NCBI GenBank assembly: GCA_021818955.1
Contig: JAKASR010000032.1
Span: forward strand, 1-35,096
Direction of reading: 5' to 3'
Source of the DNA: Acidobacteriota bacterium
Lineage (GTDB): Bacteria; Acidobacteriota; Terriglobia; Terriglobales; SCQP01
Length of the DNA: 35,096 bases
Each line of letters begins with the position of its first letter. The stretch's first letter is position 1. Of this stretch, positions 8,849 through 33,580 are shown in pieces. Both the position numbers and the translations under genes were made by a program. The notes beneath the pieces were generated by a model. It had not been told where the DNA came from, made no database searches, and was given only the letters and a program-made list of their open reading frames with translations.

Positions 8849-11239
8849 ATGGCGAAAACAAACGTGCGAGCCACCGGCGGAATCATTCTGCCTCCCGAAC
8901 GGCGCACTGCCACGGGCGAGCTGCAGCAGGTCGCCTGGGAAAATCGCATCGTCGATACTGCGGCAGTGGAAGTGCCGGTTCCGGCAGGCGAGCCGCCGAT
9001 TTGGGATGTGGAGACCCGCCCGCAGGTGATTGGCAAGGCGCTGCCGCGGCTGGATGGGCCGATCAAGGTCAGCGGCCGAGCGGATTACACCTACGATCAG
9101 TTGCCGCCGGGCACCCTCTACGGCAAAATCGTGCGCTCACCTTATCCTCACGCGCGGATTGTGCGGCTGGATCTGGAGCGGGCCCAGGCGATGCCGGGGG
9201 TGCACGCCATTATCCGGCTGGACGAAGCCGACCTGCAACATAGTTCGGCGGCGGCGGCGGCGGCGGAGCCGGGCACGGCGGTTGCGGCGCATAAGCAGAA
9301 CGGCGGCGCGAGCGGCAAACGCAATCCTTTGTTTGTCGGGGACGAAATTGCCGCAGTCGCAGCCGAAACCGAGGAACAGGCGGAAGATGCCGCGCGCGCA
9401 ATCGAAGTGGAGTACGAGCCGCTGCCCTTCGTCGCCGATCTGGAAACGGCGCGGCAGCCGACCGCGCCGCGGGTGCATGCCGGGCGCAACAATGTGCGCA
9501 AGTTGCCGGCGCCGCGGGGCAGCAACGGCGACCGGGGCGATATTCACGCCGGGCTGGCGGCGGCGGACGTCCGCATCGAAGGCGAATACCGCACGCAGGT
9601 GGCGCTGCACAACGCGCTCGAAACGCATGGCGTGGTGGCGCGCTGGGAGACAAGCAATCAGCTCACCGTCTGGGCCGCCACCCAGGGAATCTTCGGCGTG
9701 CGCGGCGATCTGGCGACATTCTTTCACCTGCCGCCACACCGGGTACGGGTGATTACGAATTATCTCGGCGGCGGCTTCGGCGCCAAGTTCGGCGCCGGCA
9801 TGCCCGGCATCGTCGCCGCCTGGCTGGCGCGCGAAGCCAAAGCGCCGGTGAAGTTGATGTATGACCGGAAGGAAGAAAACCTGGCCTCGGGCAACCGTCC
9901 CTCCAGCCATCAGCGGGTACGGCTAGGCGCGAAAAAAGACGGCAGCTTGACCGCCATCGAAATAATATCCTACGGTACCCCGGGCACCGGCCATGGCGCC
10001 GGGGTGGGCGGGATGGCGCGGCGGGCTTACAACTGCGCCAACGTGCGCCAGCAGGAGCACGACGTCGCAACCAATCTGGGACCGGCGGCGGCATTTCGAG
10101 CTCCGGGGTATCCACAGGGCGCGTTCGCGCTGGAACAGGCGCTGGATGAGCTGGCCGAGCGGTTGCAGATGGATCCGCTGGAGCTGCGGCTGAAAAATTA
10201 CCGCGAACATCCATTCAAGGCGCTGCGGCGGCAATACGAGATCGGGGCCGAGCGCATCGGCTGGTCGCGGCGGCAACACTGGCAACGCGGCGAAGGCGCG
10301 GTGCGCCGGGGACTGGGAATGGCGTCGGCCTGCTGGCCCACTTTTGGCGGACCGCCCGCGACCGCGCGGGTTACGGTGCAGCCGGATGGTACGGTTACCC
10401 TCACGGTGGGCTCGCAGGATATCGGCGGCGGCACGCGCATGATCGCCGCCCAGGTCGCGGCGGAAGAGTTCGGCTTGACGCCGTACCAGGTACGGGTTGA
10501 ATTGGGCGATACGCGCTGGGAGCTGTACGGCCCGGCTTCGGGCGGCAGCGTGACCATCACCTCGATCGCGCCGGTAATTCGCGCCGCGGCCTGGCAGGCA
10601 CAGCAAAAATTACTGGCAGCGCTGGCGCCCGGGCTGAACGTCCCGCCGGAACAGTTGAAGCTGGCCGGGGGCAAGCTGCACGGCGCGGGCGAGCCGATCC
10701 CCTTTGCCCGAGCCTGCGCCCGCCTGCGCCAGGGCACGATCAGCGCCCAGGCGGACCGCGCTGCCAACTACGAGCGCAACTTAACCGACATGTTTGGGGC
10801 GCAGTTTGCCGAAGTCGAAGTGGACACTGAAACCGGACGCATTCGCGTGGTCAAAATTGTCGCGGTGCACGACTGCGGGCGGGCGATGAACCGCCTGCTG
10901 GCCGAAAGCCAGGTTAACGGCGGCTTGATTATGGGCTTATCGTACGCGCTCTATGAAGAGCGAGTAGTGGACCGTCCGACCGGGCACGTGATGAATCCCA
11001 CGCTGGATTTTTATAAATTGGCCGGCACGCGCGAAATTCCGGAAATCGAGACAGTGATACTGGACGCGATCGATCCGCGCAGTAATAACGTGGATGCCAA
11101 GGGGTTGGGCGAGCCGCCCATCGTGCCCACAGCGGCGGCCATCGCCAATGCGGCGGCGCATGCCCTAGGGGTGCGGCTGCGTGAACTGCCGATGACGCCC
11201 GACCGGGTGCTCAACGCGCTGGCGGCGCTCAACAGTTAG
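8849..11239 (+). CDS. aldehyde oxidoreductase, molybdopterin-binding large subunit (PaoC-like)
   Basis: A 796-residue catalytic subunit of the xanthine-oxidase family, binding the molybdenum cofactor and oxidising aldehydes (or related heterocycles) with water as oxygen donor. The first domain (about 60-180) has VIGKALPRLDGPIKVSGRADYT and IEVEYEPLPFV. Cofactor-binding stretches include NYLGGGFGAKFGAG, AAFRAPGYPQGAFALEQALDE and TVGSQDIGGGTR. The base-catalyst glutamate is in KGLGEPPIVPTAAAIANA near the C-terminus. AGAGG at 8839-8843 precedes the ATG. A GCG-repeat tract at about 9247-9264 encodes six alanines in a surface loop. It has no signal of its own and is presumably exported by hitch-hiking with the Tat-bearing FeS subunit. 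Confidence 0.94.
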   Translation: MAKTNVRATGGIILPPERRTATGELQQVAWENRIVDTAAVEVPVPAGEPPIWDVETRPQVIGKALPRLDGPIKVSGRADYTYDQLPPGTLYGKIVRSPYPHARIVRLDLERAQAMPGVHAIIRLDEADLQHSSAAAAAAEPGTAVAAHKQNGGASGKRNPLFVGDEIAAVAAETEEQAEDAARAIEVEYEPLPFVADLETARQPTAPRVHAGRNNVRKLPAPRGSNGDRGDIHAGLAAADVRIEGEYRTQVALHNALETHGVVARWETSNQLTVWAATQGIFGVRGDLATFFHLPPHRVRVITNYLGGGFGAKFGAGMPGIVAAWLAREAKAPVKLMYDRKEENLASGNRPSSHQRVRLGAKKDGSLTAIEIISYGTPGTGHGAGVGGMARRAYNCANVRQQEHDVATNLGPAAAFRAPGYPQGAFALEQALDELAERLQMDPLELRLKNYREHPFKALRRQYEIGAERIGWSRRQHWQRGEGAVRRGLGMASACWPTFGGPPATARVTVQPDGTVTLTVGSQDIGGGTRMIAAQVAAEEFGLTPYQVRVELGDTRWELYGPASGGSVTITSIAPVIRAAAWQAQQKLLAALAPGLNVPPEQLKLAGGKLHGAGEPIPFARACARLRQGTISAQADRAANYERNLTDMFGAQFAEVEVDTETGRIRVVKIVAVHDCGRAMNRLLAESQVNGGLIMGLSYALYEERVVDRPTGHVMNPTLDFYKLAGTREIPEIETVILDAIDPRSNNVDAKGLGEPPIVPTAAAIANAAAHALGVRLRELPMTPDRVLNALAALNS

Positions 11240-11254
11240 GACAGCGAGGCGGAT

Positions 11255-12259
11255 ATGCGCAATTTCGAATGGCTTGAGCCGCGAACATTGGAAGAGGCCC
11301 TGGCGGCGCTCGACGCCCGCTCTATGCCGCTGGCAGGCGGGGTGGATCTGCTGGGCGAGTTGAAAGATCATATTGCCGCACCGGCGCGGGTAGTGAATTT
11401 GAAGTCGCTGCCGGGACTGCGCGGGGTCAGAGCCGAGCGCGACGGATTGCATCTGGGCGCGCTGACGTCCCTGGCCGAATTGGAAGAACACGCAGAAATT
11501 CAGCGTCACTACCGCGCCCTGGCGGAGGCGGCGGGGAGCGTGGGCACGCCGCAAATCCGCAACCAGGGGACACTGGGCGGCAATCTTTGCCAGCGCCCGC
11601 GCTGCTGGTATTACCGCAGCGAATTCCATCAGTGCCTGAAAAAGGGCGGCGGCATCTGTTACGCCCTGGCCGGCGAAAACAAATACCATGCCATACTCGG
11701 CGGCGGCCCGGCCTTTTATGCGCATCCTTCCGACCTCGCTCCGGCGCTGATCGCGCTCGACGCGCGAGTGCGGATTGCGCGCCAGGAAGGCAGACGGACT
11801 CAGTACCGTTCATTAGCGCTGAGCGAGTTTTTCCGCACGCCCGCCCAGCGACTGGTGGGGGGCGAGACCCTGCTGCAGCCGCATGAACTGTTGGTCGAGG
11901 TGATGGTGCCGCCAGCGGGCGAAAGCCGGTACCTTAAATTCCGGGAACGGCCGTCGCACGACTGGGCGATGGCGGCCTGCGCGGCGCATTTGCGCATTGC
12001 CGGCGGCCGCGTGCACGAAGCGCGCATCGTGCTGGGCGGCGTGGCCACCGTGCCTTGGCGCTCGCCAGCGGCGGAAAAAGCGATTACCGGGCTGCCGCTG
12101 GAAGAAGCGCTCAGCGAAGCCCGCCTGAAACAAGCGGCGCAGGCCGCGGTCGAAGGCGCCCAGCCGCTGCGGCAAAACTGGTACAAGATTACGCTGGCCC
12201 AGACTCTGGTGCGCCGCGCCGTGCTGGCCGCCGCCGGACGGCCGATTCCGGAAGTGTAA
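11255..12259 (+). CDS. aldehyde oxidoreductase, FAD/4Fe-4S subunit (PaoB-like)
   Basis: A 334-residue flavin subunit. FAD-binding signatures are PLAGGVDLLG (about 25-34) and NQGTLGGNLCQ (about 103-113). Between the FAD and C-terminal (CO-dehydrogenase flavoprotein) domains it carries Cys112, Cys117, Cys127 and Cys135 in LCQRPRCWYYRSEFHQC...GGGICYAL. This is the extra 4Fe-4S insertion known from PaoB/YagS and 4-hydroxybenzoyl-CoA reductase, and absent from ordinary xanthine dehydrogenases. It is third in the operon, 15 bases after the large subunit, with GAGG before its ATG. E. coli has the order FeS-FAD-Moco; here the FAD gene comes last. Confidence 0.93.
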   Translation: MRNFEWLEPRTLEEALAALDARSMPLAGGVDLLGELKDHIAAPARVVNLKSLPGLRGVRAERDGLHLGALTSLAELEEHAEIQRHYRALAEAAGSVGTPQIRNQGTLGGNLCQRPRCWYYRSEFHQCLKKGGGICYALAGENKYHAILGGGPAFYAHPSDLAPALIALDARVRIARQEGRRTQYRSLALSEFFRTPAQRLVGGETLLQPHELLVEVMVPPAGESRYLKFRERPSHDWAMAACAAHLRIAGGRVHEARIVLGGVATVPWRSPAAEKAITGLPLEEALSEARLKQAAQAAVEGAQPLRQNWYKITLAQTLVRRAVLAAAGRPIPEV

Positions 12260-21970: not shown

Positions 21971-22639
21971 TCAGCGGGCAGCGCCGGCAATCTCATCCAA
22001 GAGTTCGCGCGCGGCGGCCGGCGCGCTCACGCTACCACTCAGAATCTGGTGAGCGGTGTCGCGGCCGTAATAGGCGCGGTTGGCGGAGTGGTCCTGCTTG
22101 ATGACGCCACCGCGCAGCGTCAGACCGCCAAATAAGCCGCGACTGCGAGAGTAGGCCAGCATTTTGGCGTGCATTAACGCATCGGTTTGCGCGGAGAGAT
22201 TGCGTCCGACCGGACCGGCGGTGGCAGAGGCGTCGCCGCCGAGCGAGAATTTATCGCGCAGCAGATACTTTTCTCCGCTCTTATTCATGATCAGCAACAG
22301 CAGGTCTTCTTCCTGAGCCCCGATCTGCAGACCAAAACTGCCGCCGCCCAAGGTCAGAAACAGCGGGGCCGACCAGCCGTGCGGCGTGCGGCAGGTGACC
22401 ACGCCCCGGCCAAAATCGCCGCCAAAGACGAAGCCCGCCTTCTTCACTCCAGGAATAACCATGACACATTGCGAATGTTCCAGGATTTCCCGCGGCACCC
22501 CTCCATCGGGAGCGCGATTAATCGCTTGAAATGCGCGCGCGGCATTACGCAGCCGCTTCACGGTCTCTTGAGCACGAGATGCCATCGGCATGGCCAGCAA
22601 ACCGGCTAGCAATAACCAACCCAATCTTTTCATATGCAT
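21971..22639 (-). CDS. periplasmic SYLF (Ysc84-like) lipid-binding protein
   Basis: A 222-residue protein from ATG 22639, chosen because AGGGG lies about 6 bases upstream; ATG 22657 is less likely. The signal peptide is LGWLLLAGLLAMPMASRAQ. The SYLF domain shows AFQAINRAPDGGVPREILEHSQCVMVIPGVKKAGFVFGGDFGRGVV, then SAPLFLTLGGGSFGLQIGAQEEDLLLLIMN and AYSRSRGLFGGLTLRGGVIKQD, all standard for the family. In eukaryotes the domain binds phosphoinositides; in bacteria these are secreted envelope proteins of uncertain role. Length is normal. It is monocistronic. Confidence 0.92.
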   Translation of the reverse strand: MHMKRLGWLLLAGLLAMPMASRAQETVKRLRNAARAFQAINRAPDGGVPREILEHSQCVMVIPGVKKAGFVFGGDFGRGVVTCRTPHGWSAPLFLTLGGGSFGLQIGAQEEDLLLLIMNKSGEKYLLRDKFSLGGDASATAGPVGRNLSAQTDALMHAKMLAYSRSRGLFGGLTLRGGVIKQDHSANRAYYGRDTAHQILSGSVSAPAAARELLDEIAGAAR

Positions 22640-22923
22640 GTTTGACCCCTGAGACATACTTTAATGCAGTTTTGAATTCCAGGTACTAAGAATCGAGTTT
22701 GAAATATTACAAAATCTCCGAATGGCGATATAAAAAAGAAATATCGGCAAGAGCGATAATGCGATTACGAGCCCGCTCCAGCATCTTAAAGCGATAGCAG
22801 AAAACCCGCGAAGCGATTGGCGAGCAAGCCTGGAATCCATGTATGTGCGTGAGCGAAAAAATTTCATGCATGGGCAATTTACACGCAAGCTCGAAAGGTT
22901 GAGGCGATCTAAAAGGAACTATT

Positions 22924-23952
22924 ATGAACCCGCTTCCTATGCGCCCACCCCATCATTTTCACTGCGCGCGACGAGCTATAGGGCTGATCGTGCTGCTGGC
23001 TGCGAGCGCCGCATGGAGCCAGGCGACGGGCGGATTGCTTTCCGGCAGCGTGATTACGCCGTCCGGCCAGAACGCGGCGCATGCTAAGGTTACGGCAAAA
23101 AATCTGGCTACCGGACAAAGCTTCACCGTAGTGAGTAATCTGCTGGGTGTTTACCAATTCCCGGCCGTGCCGCCGGGCTGGTATCAGGTGATTGCGGAAG
23201 CAGCCGGGTTGCGCACTCCGACGGTAAAAATTCAACTGGTGACGGGAGTACGCTCCACGCTGAATCTAGCATTGAGCGGGCAGGCGAAAGCACCCGCGCC
23301 ACACAACCCCGCACCCGGTTTATCGCTCCAGAGTTTAGGTTTCAAGCCCAACCAGATTCGAGGCAGCTTGAGCGAACAGGCGCGACTGAACAAGCGCACG
23401 CGGATGCTGCAAATTCATCAAAAGCTGGGGCTGCTCACCACCATTCCGCTGATCGCCACGGTCATTGCCGGCGGCTGGGCCAAGCCGCATCGCTATCGCC
23501 TGAGCAATGGACAATTCGCACCCTTGCCCACGGGCAGCACCAGCGGGCGCAATATCCACCTCGCGCTGGGCGTGGTGACCACGGGAATGTATTTCACCAC
23601 TGCTTATTACGCTATTTTTGCGCCTAAAATCCAGGGACAAAAAAAGAAAGGCCCGATTCTGTGGCATGAGGGGCTGGCATGGATTCACGGCACGGGCATG
23701 ATCTTGACACCGATTTTGGGAGCCATGGCTTACCAGCAACTCAATCGCGGCGAGCGAGTGCATGGGATTGCCAAACTACATGGCGCTGTCGCCGTAACCA
23801 CCTTAGGAGCTTATGTTGCCGCCTTGCTGGTGGTGGCGCGTCCGCATTGGCTGGCCGAAATCACCCGTGCGCCACATAGAGTTTTCGCCTGGCTGCATGC
23901 TGGAATGCAGCCGGCGCCGCCGCGAGTCCAGACCACCCTGTTCACGCCTTAA
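22924..23952 (+). CDS. carboxypeptidase-regulatory-like domain fused to cytochrome b561-like 4-helix module
   Basis: A 342-residue protein. A signal peptide (AIGLIVLLAASAAWSQA) is followed by a CarboxypepD_reg-like beta-sandwich (about 38-120: GSVITPSGQNAAHAKVTAKNLATG, VYQFPAVPPGWYQV). A Pro-rich linker then leads to four membrane helices, most of which begin at a histidine: His165 (RMLQIHQKLG), His212 (GRNIHLALGVV), His248 and His255 (LWHEGLAWIHG), and His280 and His286 (RVHGIAKLHG). This His arrangement is that of cytochrome b561-type di-haem electron carriers. AAAAGGAAC just before the ATG is a good ribosome site. The next gene, YceI-like, starts 33 bases later, so this pair mirrors the b561 (yceJ) - yceI operon of E. 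coli. Haem binding is inferred, not shown. Confidence 0.82.
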   Translation: MNPLPMRPPHHFHCARRAIGLIVLLAASAAWSQATGGLLSGSVITPSGQNAAHAKVTAKNLATGQSFTVVSNLLGVYQFPAVPPGWYQVIAEAAGLRTPTVKIQLVTGVRSTLNLALSGQAKAPAPHNPAPGLSLQSLGFKPNQIRGSLSEQARLNKRTRMLQIHQKLGLLTTIPLIATVIAGGWAKPHRYRLSNGQFAPLPTGSTSGRNIHLALGVVTTGMYFTTAYYAIFAPKIQGQKKKGPILWHEGLAWIHGTGMILTPILGAMAYQQLNRGERVHGIAKLHGAVAVTTLGAYVAALLVVARPHWLAEITRAPHRVFAWLHAGMQPAPPRVQTTLFTP

Positions 23953-23985
23953 CTTGAGAACTAGCAAAAAGAAGAGGACTCTTCG

Positions 23986-24549
23986 ATGCCGAATTCGATA
24001 TCGAAACTGATCTTGCTCGCCCTGCCGGCAGCATTTGTTCCCCGGTTTTCCGCGTCCGCCGCTAAACCCCTGCAATGGAAATTGTTGAAAGCTACGCTCA
24101 CCTACCATGTCTCCACTGCTTTACATCAGGTCTATGGGGTCAGCAAAATGGCCAAGGGAAAAGGCGTCTGCCACTCGGGGCAGTGCAGTTTCCTGGCGGC
24201 CGCACCGGTAAACTCGTTTCACTCCGGCGACACCAATCGTGATCTGCATATGATCCAGTCGGTGCGCGGCGCGGTCTACCCGATGGTGATTGTGCGCACG
24301 CAAATTCCCGAGGCGGCCATCCATCCCGGGCCGCTGCGCGCGAAGCTGCAAATTCAATTCGCCGGCCACACCGTAAATTACAATCAGGTGGCGTTCCAAT
24401 TAATCCAGCAGGGGAAAAATTATCGCCTAACCGGAACGATTCCCGCTAAGCTTTCGGATTTCCAGATTCCTCCCCCGGAGTTTTTGTTTTTGAAAGTCGC
24501 CAATCCCATTCCCGTTGCGGTGAACATGCTCTGGACGCAGACAGGCTAA
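23986..24549 (+). CDS. YceI-like periplasmic lipid-binding protein
   Basis: A 187-residue protein with a signal peptide (LILLALPAAFVPRFSASA). The lipocalin-like YceI fold is recognisable in LTYHVSTALHQVYGVSK at the start, FHSGDTNRDLHMIQSV (equivalent to the F.SG...RD.HM motif) and VYPMVIVRTQIP. YceI proteins bind isoprenoid chains such as ubiquinone-like or polyisoprenoid lipids in a barrel. The pair HSGQC/VCHSG adds two cysteines (in GVCHSGQCSF) close together, unusual and possibly a disulphide or metal site. It lies 33 bases after the b561-like gene with no terminator between, so the two are probably one operon. Confidence 0.85.
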   Translation: MPNSISKLILLALPAAFVPRFSASAAKPLQWKLLKATLTYHVSTALHQVYGVSKMAKGKGVCHSGQCSFLAAAPVNSFHSGDTNRDLHMIQSVRGAVYPMVIVRTQIPEAAIHPGPLRAKLQIQFAGHTVNYNQVAFQLIQQGKNYRLTGTIPAKLSDFQIPPPEFLFLKVANPIPVAVNMLWTQTG

Positions 24550-31669: not shown

Positions 31670-32425
31670 TTAAAGCTGAAGACCGGAGCCGGAGATCAGC
31701 GCGTCAGGAGGCTCCGGCTTGAGCCGGGTAATACGGCCGGCATCGGGAGGAGACGCAGCCAGGTGAAAATATTCCAAGCCTCCTCCCAACGCCAGGTAGG
31801 CGTCAAATCGCGGAAACAGCGGCGCCTGTGTCTGATGACAATGAAACGCCGCCTGCTTGCGCTCAAGCCAGGGCTGGATATCGCAGACCAAATGAGGCGG
31901 CGAGAGTTGCACGTCGGGATAGTTGGGCAATGAAGCGCGGCCGCTGCCGTACCATAAACGCTGCACCTGAAACGCGGGTGCGCCGGCCAAGGGCCAGGCG
32001 CGTTCATTGGCGGCCCAATGAAAGGCGGCGGTGGCAAGCATGCCAGCCATGCCGTGGTCGGGATGTCCAGTCAGGCTGCCTTCCGGACCCATCGTCAGAA
32101 CCAGGTCGGGACGCCAGTCACGAATAATATCGGCCAGGCGTCCGGCGGTGGTGGAAAAATCGGTTCGAGGCAGGCCGCTATCGGGCAAATCCCAGATTTC
32201 ATGCTGGCCAATGCCGAGTAGTCGGCAGGAAGCCTCCAGTTCGCCCGCTCGTAAAGCTTTCAATTCCTCCATGCTCTTTGCCGTGCCGCGGTTTCGCGCG
32301 GCTTCGCCACCGGTGAGGCAAACCAGCCGAACTTGCACGCCGTGATCGGTTAATGCGGCCAGCGTACCCCCGAAATTTCCCGCTTCATCGTCCGGATGCG
32401 CCGTAATACACAGCAGGCGAGGCAT
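31670..32425 (-). CDS. PIG-L/LmbE-family deacetylase
   Basis: A 251-residue zinc-dependent N-acetyl-hydrolase of the LmbE/PIG-L family. The metal site is AHPDDE (His10, Asp13) and HPDH (His121, His124). The second-half helix with [11 protein letters not shown] corresponds to the usual K..A...H.SQ segment. Family members deacetylate amino sugars such as GlcNAc-malate in bacillithiol synthesis (BshB) or GlcNAc-inositol in mycothiol synthesis, or act on antibiotic intermediates. The substrate here is unknown; BshB1-like is a reasonable guess in this phylum. No bshA or bshC gene lies in the window. It is divergent from mqnA. Confidence 0.93.
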
Positions 32426-32717: not shown

Positions 32718-32758
32718 TTTTTTTGCCCTCCCGCACCTCATTCGCACGCTCCTGGCGC

Positions 32759-33580
32759 GTGGCCGCAATTCGTTTTCTCAACACCGCCCCGCTGTTGTGG
32801 GGCCTGGATCGGGAACCCCGGCTGCAGATGTTTTCGACTGTGCCTTCAGCCTGCGCTGACGCGCTGGCCGCCGGCCAAGCCGATCTAGGCATCATTCCAG
32901 TCATCGAAATGGCGCGCATTCCAGGGCTCTGGGCGCTGCCTGGCGTCGCCGTCGCCGCGCGCCGGCAAGTCCGCAGCATATTGCTGATCATGCGCACGCC
33001 GCCGGAACGGATTCGCAGCCTGGCGCTCGACCGCAGCTCGCGTACATCGGCGGCGCTGGCGCAAATTTTATTGCGGCGGCGTTTTGGCGCAGATTTCAAG
33101 GCGGTTTCCGCTTCACCGGACTGGCGTGGCATGCTGGCTTCCGCCGATGCCGGCCTGCTGATCGGCGACCCCGCGCTGCAGCTTCGGTTAAGCGGCGAGG
33201 CCGAGGCCGAAGGCTTCGGCGTGCTGGACCTAGCCACGGTCTGGCACGAATGGACACGGCTGCCATTCATTTTTGCGCTTTGGGCCGTGCGCGCCGAAAG
33301 TATGCCCGAGCCGGAAAGCGAAGAAGCCCGTTGGCTGGCGGAACGTTTTATTCGCGCGCGCGAGGAAGGCTTCGAGCATCTGACCGCCATCTGCCGGGAA
33401 TGGGCGCTGCGGCTGAATTTGCCCGAACACGAAATCCGGCACTACCTCGAACACAACCTGGAACATCGGCTCGATGCCGGACATCTGGAGGGCTTGCGCC
33501 ATTTTCTCGATTTGGCCGCCACCGAAGGCTTAATCGAGCAATCCCGGCTGCCGGTTTTCATTAGAGCGCCAAAACCGTAA
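32759..33580 (+). CDS. mqnA: menaquinone biosynthesis protein MqnA (chorismate dehydratase)
   Basis: A 273-residue periplasmic-binding-protein-fold enzyme of the futalosine pathway. It converts chorismate to 3-[(1-carboxyvinyl)oxy]benzoate, the first step of this menaquinone route. The opening AAIRFLNTAPLLWGLD matches the family's ..YLNT.PL start. ADLGIIPVIEMARI is the ADxGLIPV-like binding segment, and LLIGDPALQL and DLATVWHEWTRLPFIFALW are characteristic. GTG 32759 is preferred because homologues begin just before the LNT motif; a TTG at 32723 would add 12 residues. No other futalosine-pathway gene (mqnB/C/D) lies in the window. The hairpin at 33641-33667 probably ends its transcript. Confidence 0.9.
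   Translation: MAAIRFLNTAPLLWGLDREPRLQMFSTVPSACADALAAGQADLGIIPVIEMARIPGLWALPGVAVAARRQVRSILLIMRTPPERIRSLALDRSSRTSAALAQILLRRRFGADFKAVSASPDWRGMLASADAGLLIGDPALQLRLSGEAEAEGFGVLDLATVWHEWTRLPFIFALWAVRAESMPEPESEEARWLAERFIRAREEGFEHLTAICREWALRLNLPEHEIRHYLEHNLEHRLDAGHLEGLRHFLDLAATEGLIEQSRLPVFIRAPKP

Follow-up and report, generated by a model that had tools for sequence, protein, structure and literature searches.

Does the pairing of a cytochrome b561 gene with a gene for a YceI lipocalin, as found at yceJ-yceI in E. coli, recur in a phylum as distant as the Acidobacteriota, and if so, with which kind of cytochrome? The question is raised by two genes, termed A and B here, in a 35,096-nucleotide stretch of DNA (the window) from an acidobacterial genome of 3.8 Mb. 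An original prediction, made from the letters of the window, had described gene A as a b561-like membrane protein fused behind a periplasmic beta-sandwich and gene B as a YceI protein 33 bases further on, and had proposed that the E. coli pair recurs here with a new extra domain as a lipid-quinone redox module. An ORF check confirmed both reading frames, which are co-directional and separated by 33 bp, with a likely ribosome-binding site 7 bases ahead of the gene B ATG (Table 1). The analyses described below indicate that genes A and B are a real, conserved, Acidobacteriota-centred variant of the known b561-lipocalin module. A literature search turned up no description of the pair from Acidobacteria, and a module that unites a cytochrome of different wiring, a dispensable sandwich and a YceI with cysteines seems, as far as the literature searched shows, to be undescribed. 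The gene directly upstream of gene A, in divergent orientation, encodes a SYLF/Ysc84 domain protein (21971-22657, reverse strand).

Table 1. Coordinates of features of genes A and B in the window, and of the response regulator found beside the pair at other loci
Feature	Position	Strand	Basis or remark
Gene A: signal peptide, CarboxypepD_reg, linker and four-helix b561-like membrane domain	22924..23952	+	342 aa
Gene A signal peptide, residues 1-32	22924..23019	+	predicted cut after AWS, inferred from sequence; model helix 10-29
CarboxypepD_reg (transthyretin-like) beta-sandwich, residues 39-117	23038..23274	+	PF13620, E 3.3e-15; Foldseek
Gene A four-helix transmembrane core, residues 149-305	23368..23838	+	model pLDDT 88, pTM 0.78; conservation
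His165, helix a, candidate ligand H1	23416..23418	+	87/87
His212, helix b, candidate ligand H2	23557..23559	+	87/87
His248, at the start of helix c; candidate ligand H3, alternatively second-shell/proton donor	23665..23667	+	87/87; small residues at +4, +18
His255, helix c, candidate ligand H3	23686..23688	+	87/87; Thr at +7 as for H165, H212, H286
His280, at the start of helix d; probable second-shell/proton donor	23761..23763	+	84/87
His286, helix d, candidate ligand H4	23779..23781	+	87/87
AGAGGA, likely ribosome-binding site of gene B, within the 33-bp gap	23973..23978	+	read from sequence
Gene B: secreted YceI-family protein	23986..24549	+	187 aa
Cys62 of CX4C pair (CHSGQC)	24169..24171	+	invariant in 60-member alignment
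Cys67 of CX4C pair (CHSGQC)	24184..24186	+	invariant in 60-member alignment
Response regulator beside the pair	L079:6041-6862; L042, L080, L095, L057, L055, L084; L014, L075		divergent in L014, L075

The predicted N-terminal carboxypeptidase-regulatory domain was recovered in a Pfam search with gene A (Table 1) and in an AlphaFold2 model of the protein, where a beta-sandwich stands between a signal helix and a bundle of four helices. Foldseek searches with the full-length model returned matches to the sandwich only, which resembles the transthyretin-like domains of carboxypeptidases. Since PF13620 is present in only 43 of 70 gene A relatives, the remainder having a low-complexity stretch in its place, the sandwich is an accessory rather than an essential part and, judged from these relatives, is common but dispensable. 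Elsewhere in the host genome CarboxypepD_reg-like domains occur mainly in large reading frames. The linker between sandwich and four-helix core is proline/alanine-rich. A short motif, LP[D/N/S]AP(S), recurs in the gene A linkers of many relatives and in otherwise unrelated secreted proteins of acidobacteria, right behind the signal peptide (L055:3584-4573, L042:3594-4514 and, on the reverse strand, L079:8309-9097), with 15 occurrences outside recognised core frames versus a mean of 3.9 for anagrams of the motif.

Gene B encodes a YceI-like body preceded by a signal peptide. The window's copy alone gave no match in a Pfam search, but PF04264 was matched by 56 of 60 gene B relatives (best 1.4e-9), and gene B is therefore assigned to YceI, as predicted, through its family; on this sequence evidence it is best described as a divergent YceI protein. 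A profile comparison of the gene B family with three canonical YceI proteins, based on thin alignments, was in register but of low probability (6.7%, E value 0.0054). The host genome also encodes two canonical YceI proteins, located on other contigs with no adjacent b561 gene and having no signal peptide by inspection. A phmmer search against PDB sequences yielded no match for either the gene A or the gene B protein, and profiles of the core and of YceI gave chance hits only against the same sequences.

Linkage of the two genes was then considered across the phylum. A protein search of 297 genomes located the core in 6, with close relatives of gene B adjoining in those same genomes, and a profile search of 396 genomes located the core at 9 loci in 8 genomes, with a YceI neighbour at all nine; since only 8 of the 396 genomes carry the core, the pair is an accessory one. 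A weak extra core match in genome G203 proved to be an aldo-keto reductase and was removed as a false positive. Close YceI loci in the phylum genomes numbered ten, one of them (L020/L143, in genome G084) encoding a YceI of the cysteine-bearing family in a genome with no b561 core match. A broader scan with one genome per species yielded 167 relatives, and locus counts were made on the best 80 of these. Of the 80, 79 carry an Acidobacteriota label and one is a metagenome bin assigned to Opitutaceae; a YceI of the same family lies directly after the core at 78. At L066 and L086 no YceI was found within the roughly 250 bases left before the contig end. At one locus (L039:4290-6179) the core and YceI share a single reading frame uninterrupted by a stop codon, representing either a natural fusion or an assembly error. 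Distances between cores and between YceI proteins across 55 loci were correlated (rho 0.65 versus a permutation maximum of 0.24), a sequence-based result that fits joint inheritance, although species history or shared ancestry alone would yield some correlation. A closely similar OmpR-type response regulator, usually accompanied by a histidine kinase, lies beside the pair in about ten of the 80 loci and begins right after YceI in six of them (L079, L042, L080, L095, L057 and L084), which suggests regulated expression.

The b561 reading of gene A had been founded on histidines placed in four helices. When conservation was counted over 87 aligned gene A relatives, five of the six histidines named proved invariant and the sixth, His280, nearly so (Table 1). 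Eukaryotic b561 proteins carry small residues at His+4 and His+18, leaving room for the haem (PMC10691727). In the gene A family small residues occupy both positions in 100% of sequences for H165 and H212, and occur for H248 in 89% at +4 and 100% at +18 and for H286 in 100% at +4, against a background rate of 34%. A conserved threonine is found at +7 from H165 (95%), H212 (89%), H255 (98%) and H286 (100%), each of these four histidines being ~20 residues from its own helix end; in designed diheme bundles the ligand histidines are held by threonines (PMC10120048). Because the small-residue and threonine patterns disagree on helix c, both H248 and H255 are candidates for the third ligand.

The proposed recurrence of the E. 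coli pair holds as regards gene order, yceJ and yceI being adjacent and in the same order as genes A and B, but not as regards the type of cytochrome. Six YceJ/CybB-type proteins share invariant H18, H52, H145, H159 and H166, with the H145/H159 pair 14 residues apart in the last helix. The gene A family, in contrast, has no last-helix pair at that spacing, its last-helix histidines being 6 apart, while helix c carries invariant histidines and each of the four helices has at least one. Indeed, hhalign found no profile match between the gene A core and these six proteins (probability 0.7%). The eukaryotic b561 family PF03188 was matched weakly by 14 of 70 gene A relatives at E<0.1 (best 1.8e-5) and the prokaryotic family PF01292 by 6 of 70; the PF03188 matches inspected scored 13-21 bits against a cut-off of 23, in mixed registers, and none of the b561 Pfam matches inspected reached its curated cut-off. 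A PF03188 search of 99 phylum genomes likewise gave no match over the cut-off. Gene A is accordingly described as b561-like, with an apparently eukaryote-like ligand layout, and is placed in neither PF03188 nor PF01292. Its layout is nearer to the eukaryotic one than to the YceJ type, so the similarity in gene order may stem from two modules put together in parallel and not from a single pair that recurs.

In B. cenocepacia, mutation of either gene of the LcoA-BcnA pair causes lipid peroxidation to accumulate, and it has been proposed that the cytochrome re-reduces a quinone held by the lipocalin (PMC9113575). The lipid-quinone idea of the original prediction fits this published precedent and, being the LcoA-BcnA model, is not new. 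The LcoA-BcnA logic fits here with menaquinone, because the host genome has two PF02621 menaquinone-biosynthesis genes and a search of the genome found no COQ7. One of the two, which codes for a protein of the MqnA/MqnD type, lies within the window itself, some 8 kb beyond the pair (32723-33580, forward strand). The window also encodes the large and FAD subunits of a molybdopterin aldehyde oxidoreductase/xanthine dehydrogenase-type enzyme (8849-12259, forward strand) and a BshB/MshB-like deacetylase (of the bacillithiol or mycothiol type; 31670-32425, reverse strand), which falls below the equivalog cut-off.

Taken with the domains, conservation, linkage, fold class and menaquinone gene content observed, this precedent leads us to infer a haem, a lipid ligand, a direction of electron flow and a protective role. 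It seems probable that the pair is an Acidobacteriota variant of the cytochrome b561-lipocalin (LcoA-BcnA, yceJ-yceI) module, passing electrons across the membrane to a lipid or menaquinone held by YceI. The four helices of gene A would most likely bind a pair of b haems, close to opposite faces of the membrane, with every helix supplying a single histidine ligand: H165 paired with either H255 or H248 at the periplasmic face, and H212 paired with H286 at the cytoplasmic face. Electrons would cross the inner membrane through these two haems and reach gene B, a secreted YceI barrel that would hold an isoprenoid lipid, probably menaquinone, and act as the periplasmic exchange partner of gene A. 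The pair would thereby keep periplasmic lipid or quinone reduced and quench envelope radicals, and the sandwich would be an optional part, for docking or for tethering. The main clue to the role of the lipid carried by YceI proteins is their association with a b561 cytochrome; if another lineage of cytochromes proved to be linked to YceI just as tightly, this would speak for a functional and not a historical coupling.

The cysteines noticed in the CHSGQC segment of gene B bear on where the electrons might go. C62 and C67 are invariant in the family (Table 1) and absent from the canonical YceI sequences of E. coli and of the host genome; BcnA homologues are reported to be without cysteine, and alpha-1-microglobulin works through a loop cysteine (PMC9113575). 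All of this would suit a cytochrome that passes electrons to the cysteine pair rather than to a bound quinone, giving a periplasmic dithiol lipocalin, driven from the membrane, for the reduction of lipid hydroperoxides or aldehydes. However, two cysteines in CX4C spacing beside a strand may simply form a structural disulfide, or may belong to a metal site with the conserved histidines, and we regard the dithiol reading as unlikely. A bolder version, in which the locus is a second, independently assembled b561-lipocalin module, with a bacterial diheme cytochrome of the eukaryotic one-histidine-per-helix layout and the YceI cysteine pair as electron acceptor of a membrane-powered dithiol lipocalin, is likewise a long shot. 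The locus also offers a menaquinone-based version of the module, in which the cysteine pair makes the electron acceptor testable by mutation.

Structure prediction of the four-helix module returned the expected bundle, modelled with good reliability (Table 1). Foldseek with the core alone gave no match below E 0.16. In structural comparison, matches to the core included 4D2, a designed diheme bundle (Z 11.7, with an rmsd of 2.2 across all of its 106 residues), the superoxide oxidase of E. coli, 5oc0, at Z 10.1, and human Dcytb, 5zle, at Z 9.8 (model residues 24-178 on chain residues 41-184), but unrelated four-helix bundles of chemoreceptor domains also scored a Z of about 10. Since such bundles are common and unrelated ones score alike, the fold alone is weak evidence; the modelled fold is compatible with b561 and not diagnostic of it. 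Lysine plus arginine number about 11 on the presumed periplasmic side versus 6.5 on the cytoplasmic side, which runs against the assumed topology; the presumed periplasmic loops may form a superoxide- or lipid-collecting surface, or the assumed topology may be in error. Superoxide oxidase (SOO) gathers superoxide with a positively charged P-side (PMC11869295), and the K/R-rich loops, the presence of 5oc0 among the structural matches and the extra conserved H248 and H280, which could act like the SOO proton donors H87/H158, would all be in keeping with a gene A protein that passes electrons from superoxide in the periplasm to menaquinone, while YceI buffers the quinone. Neither the ligand layout nor the sequence profile matches the SOO family, however, and the proposal appears improbable. 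Least likely of all is that gene A is not a haem protein, its histidines binding metal ions or protons while the pair moves lipid or metal, since the generic nature of the four-helix fold and the lack of an inspected b561 family match over cut-off are set against at least one invariant histidine at each helix entry, b561-type small-residue spacing and a recurrent YceI partner.

The b561-lipocalin reading preferred here is best judged beside known systems. E. coli superoxide oxidase CybB (5oc0) shares with gene A a four-helix membrane bundle and extra histidines near the presumed haem site, but differs in histidine layout and has no profile similarity to it. CYBDOM proteins (DOMON-b561; PMC10691727) similarly place an extracytoplasmic beta-sandwich ahead of a b561 core that starts at the first transmembrane helix; the gene A sandwich, however, is CarboxypepD_reg rather than a haem-binding DOMON, and is missing from about 40% of relatives. 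The cytochrome b561 of eukaryotes (PF03188; Dcytb, AtCytb561-B) resembles gene A in its core of four helices, each bearing an invariant histidine, and in the small residues at His+4/+18, whereas gene A is bacterial and YceI-linked, has only weak sequence similarity to it and lacks the outer helices 1 and 6. With LcoA-BcnA and YceJ-YceI (PMC9113575) the locus shares a b561-like gene directly upstream of, and co-directional with, a secreted YceI gene, the partner belonging (via its relatives) to the PF04264 family; occasional apparent fusion of the two genes, fusions being known for LcoA-BcnA in alpha-proteobacteria (PMC9113575), and, by analogy, a likely envelope redox role are further points in common. 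It departs from them in having histidines in all four helices instead of an invariant last-helix pair 14 residues apart, an N-terminal sandwich, a menaquinone genome and an invariant C62/C67 pair where the BcnA lipocalins reportedly have no cysteine. Nevertheless, by analogy of gene order and partner, LcoA-BcnA is the nearest functional precedent for genes A and B.
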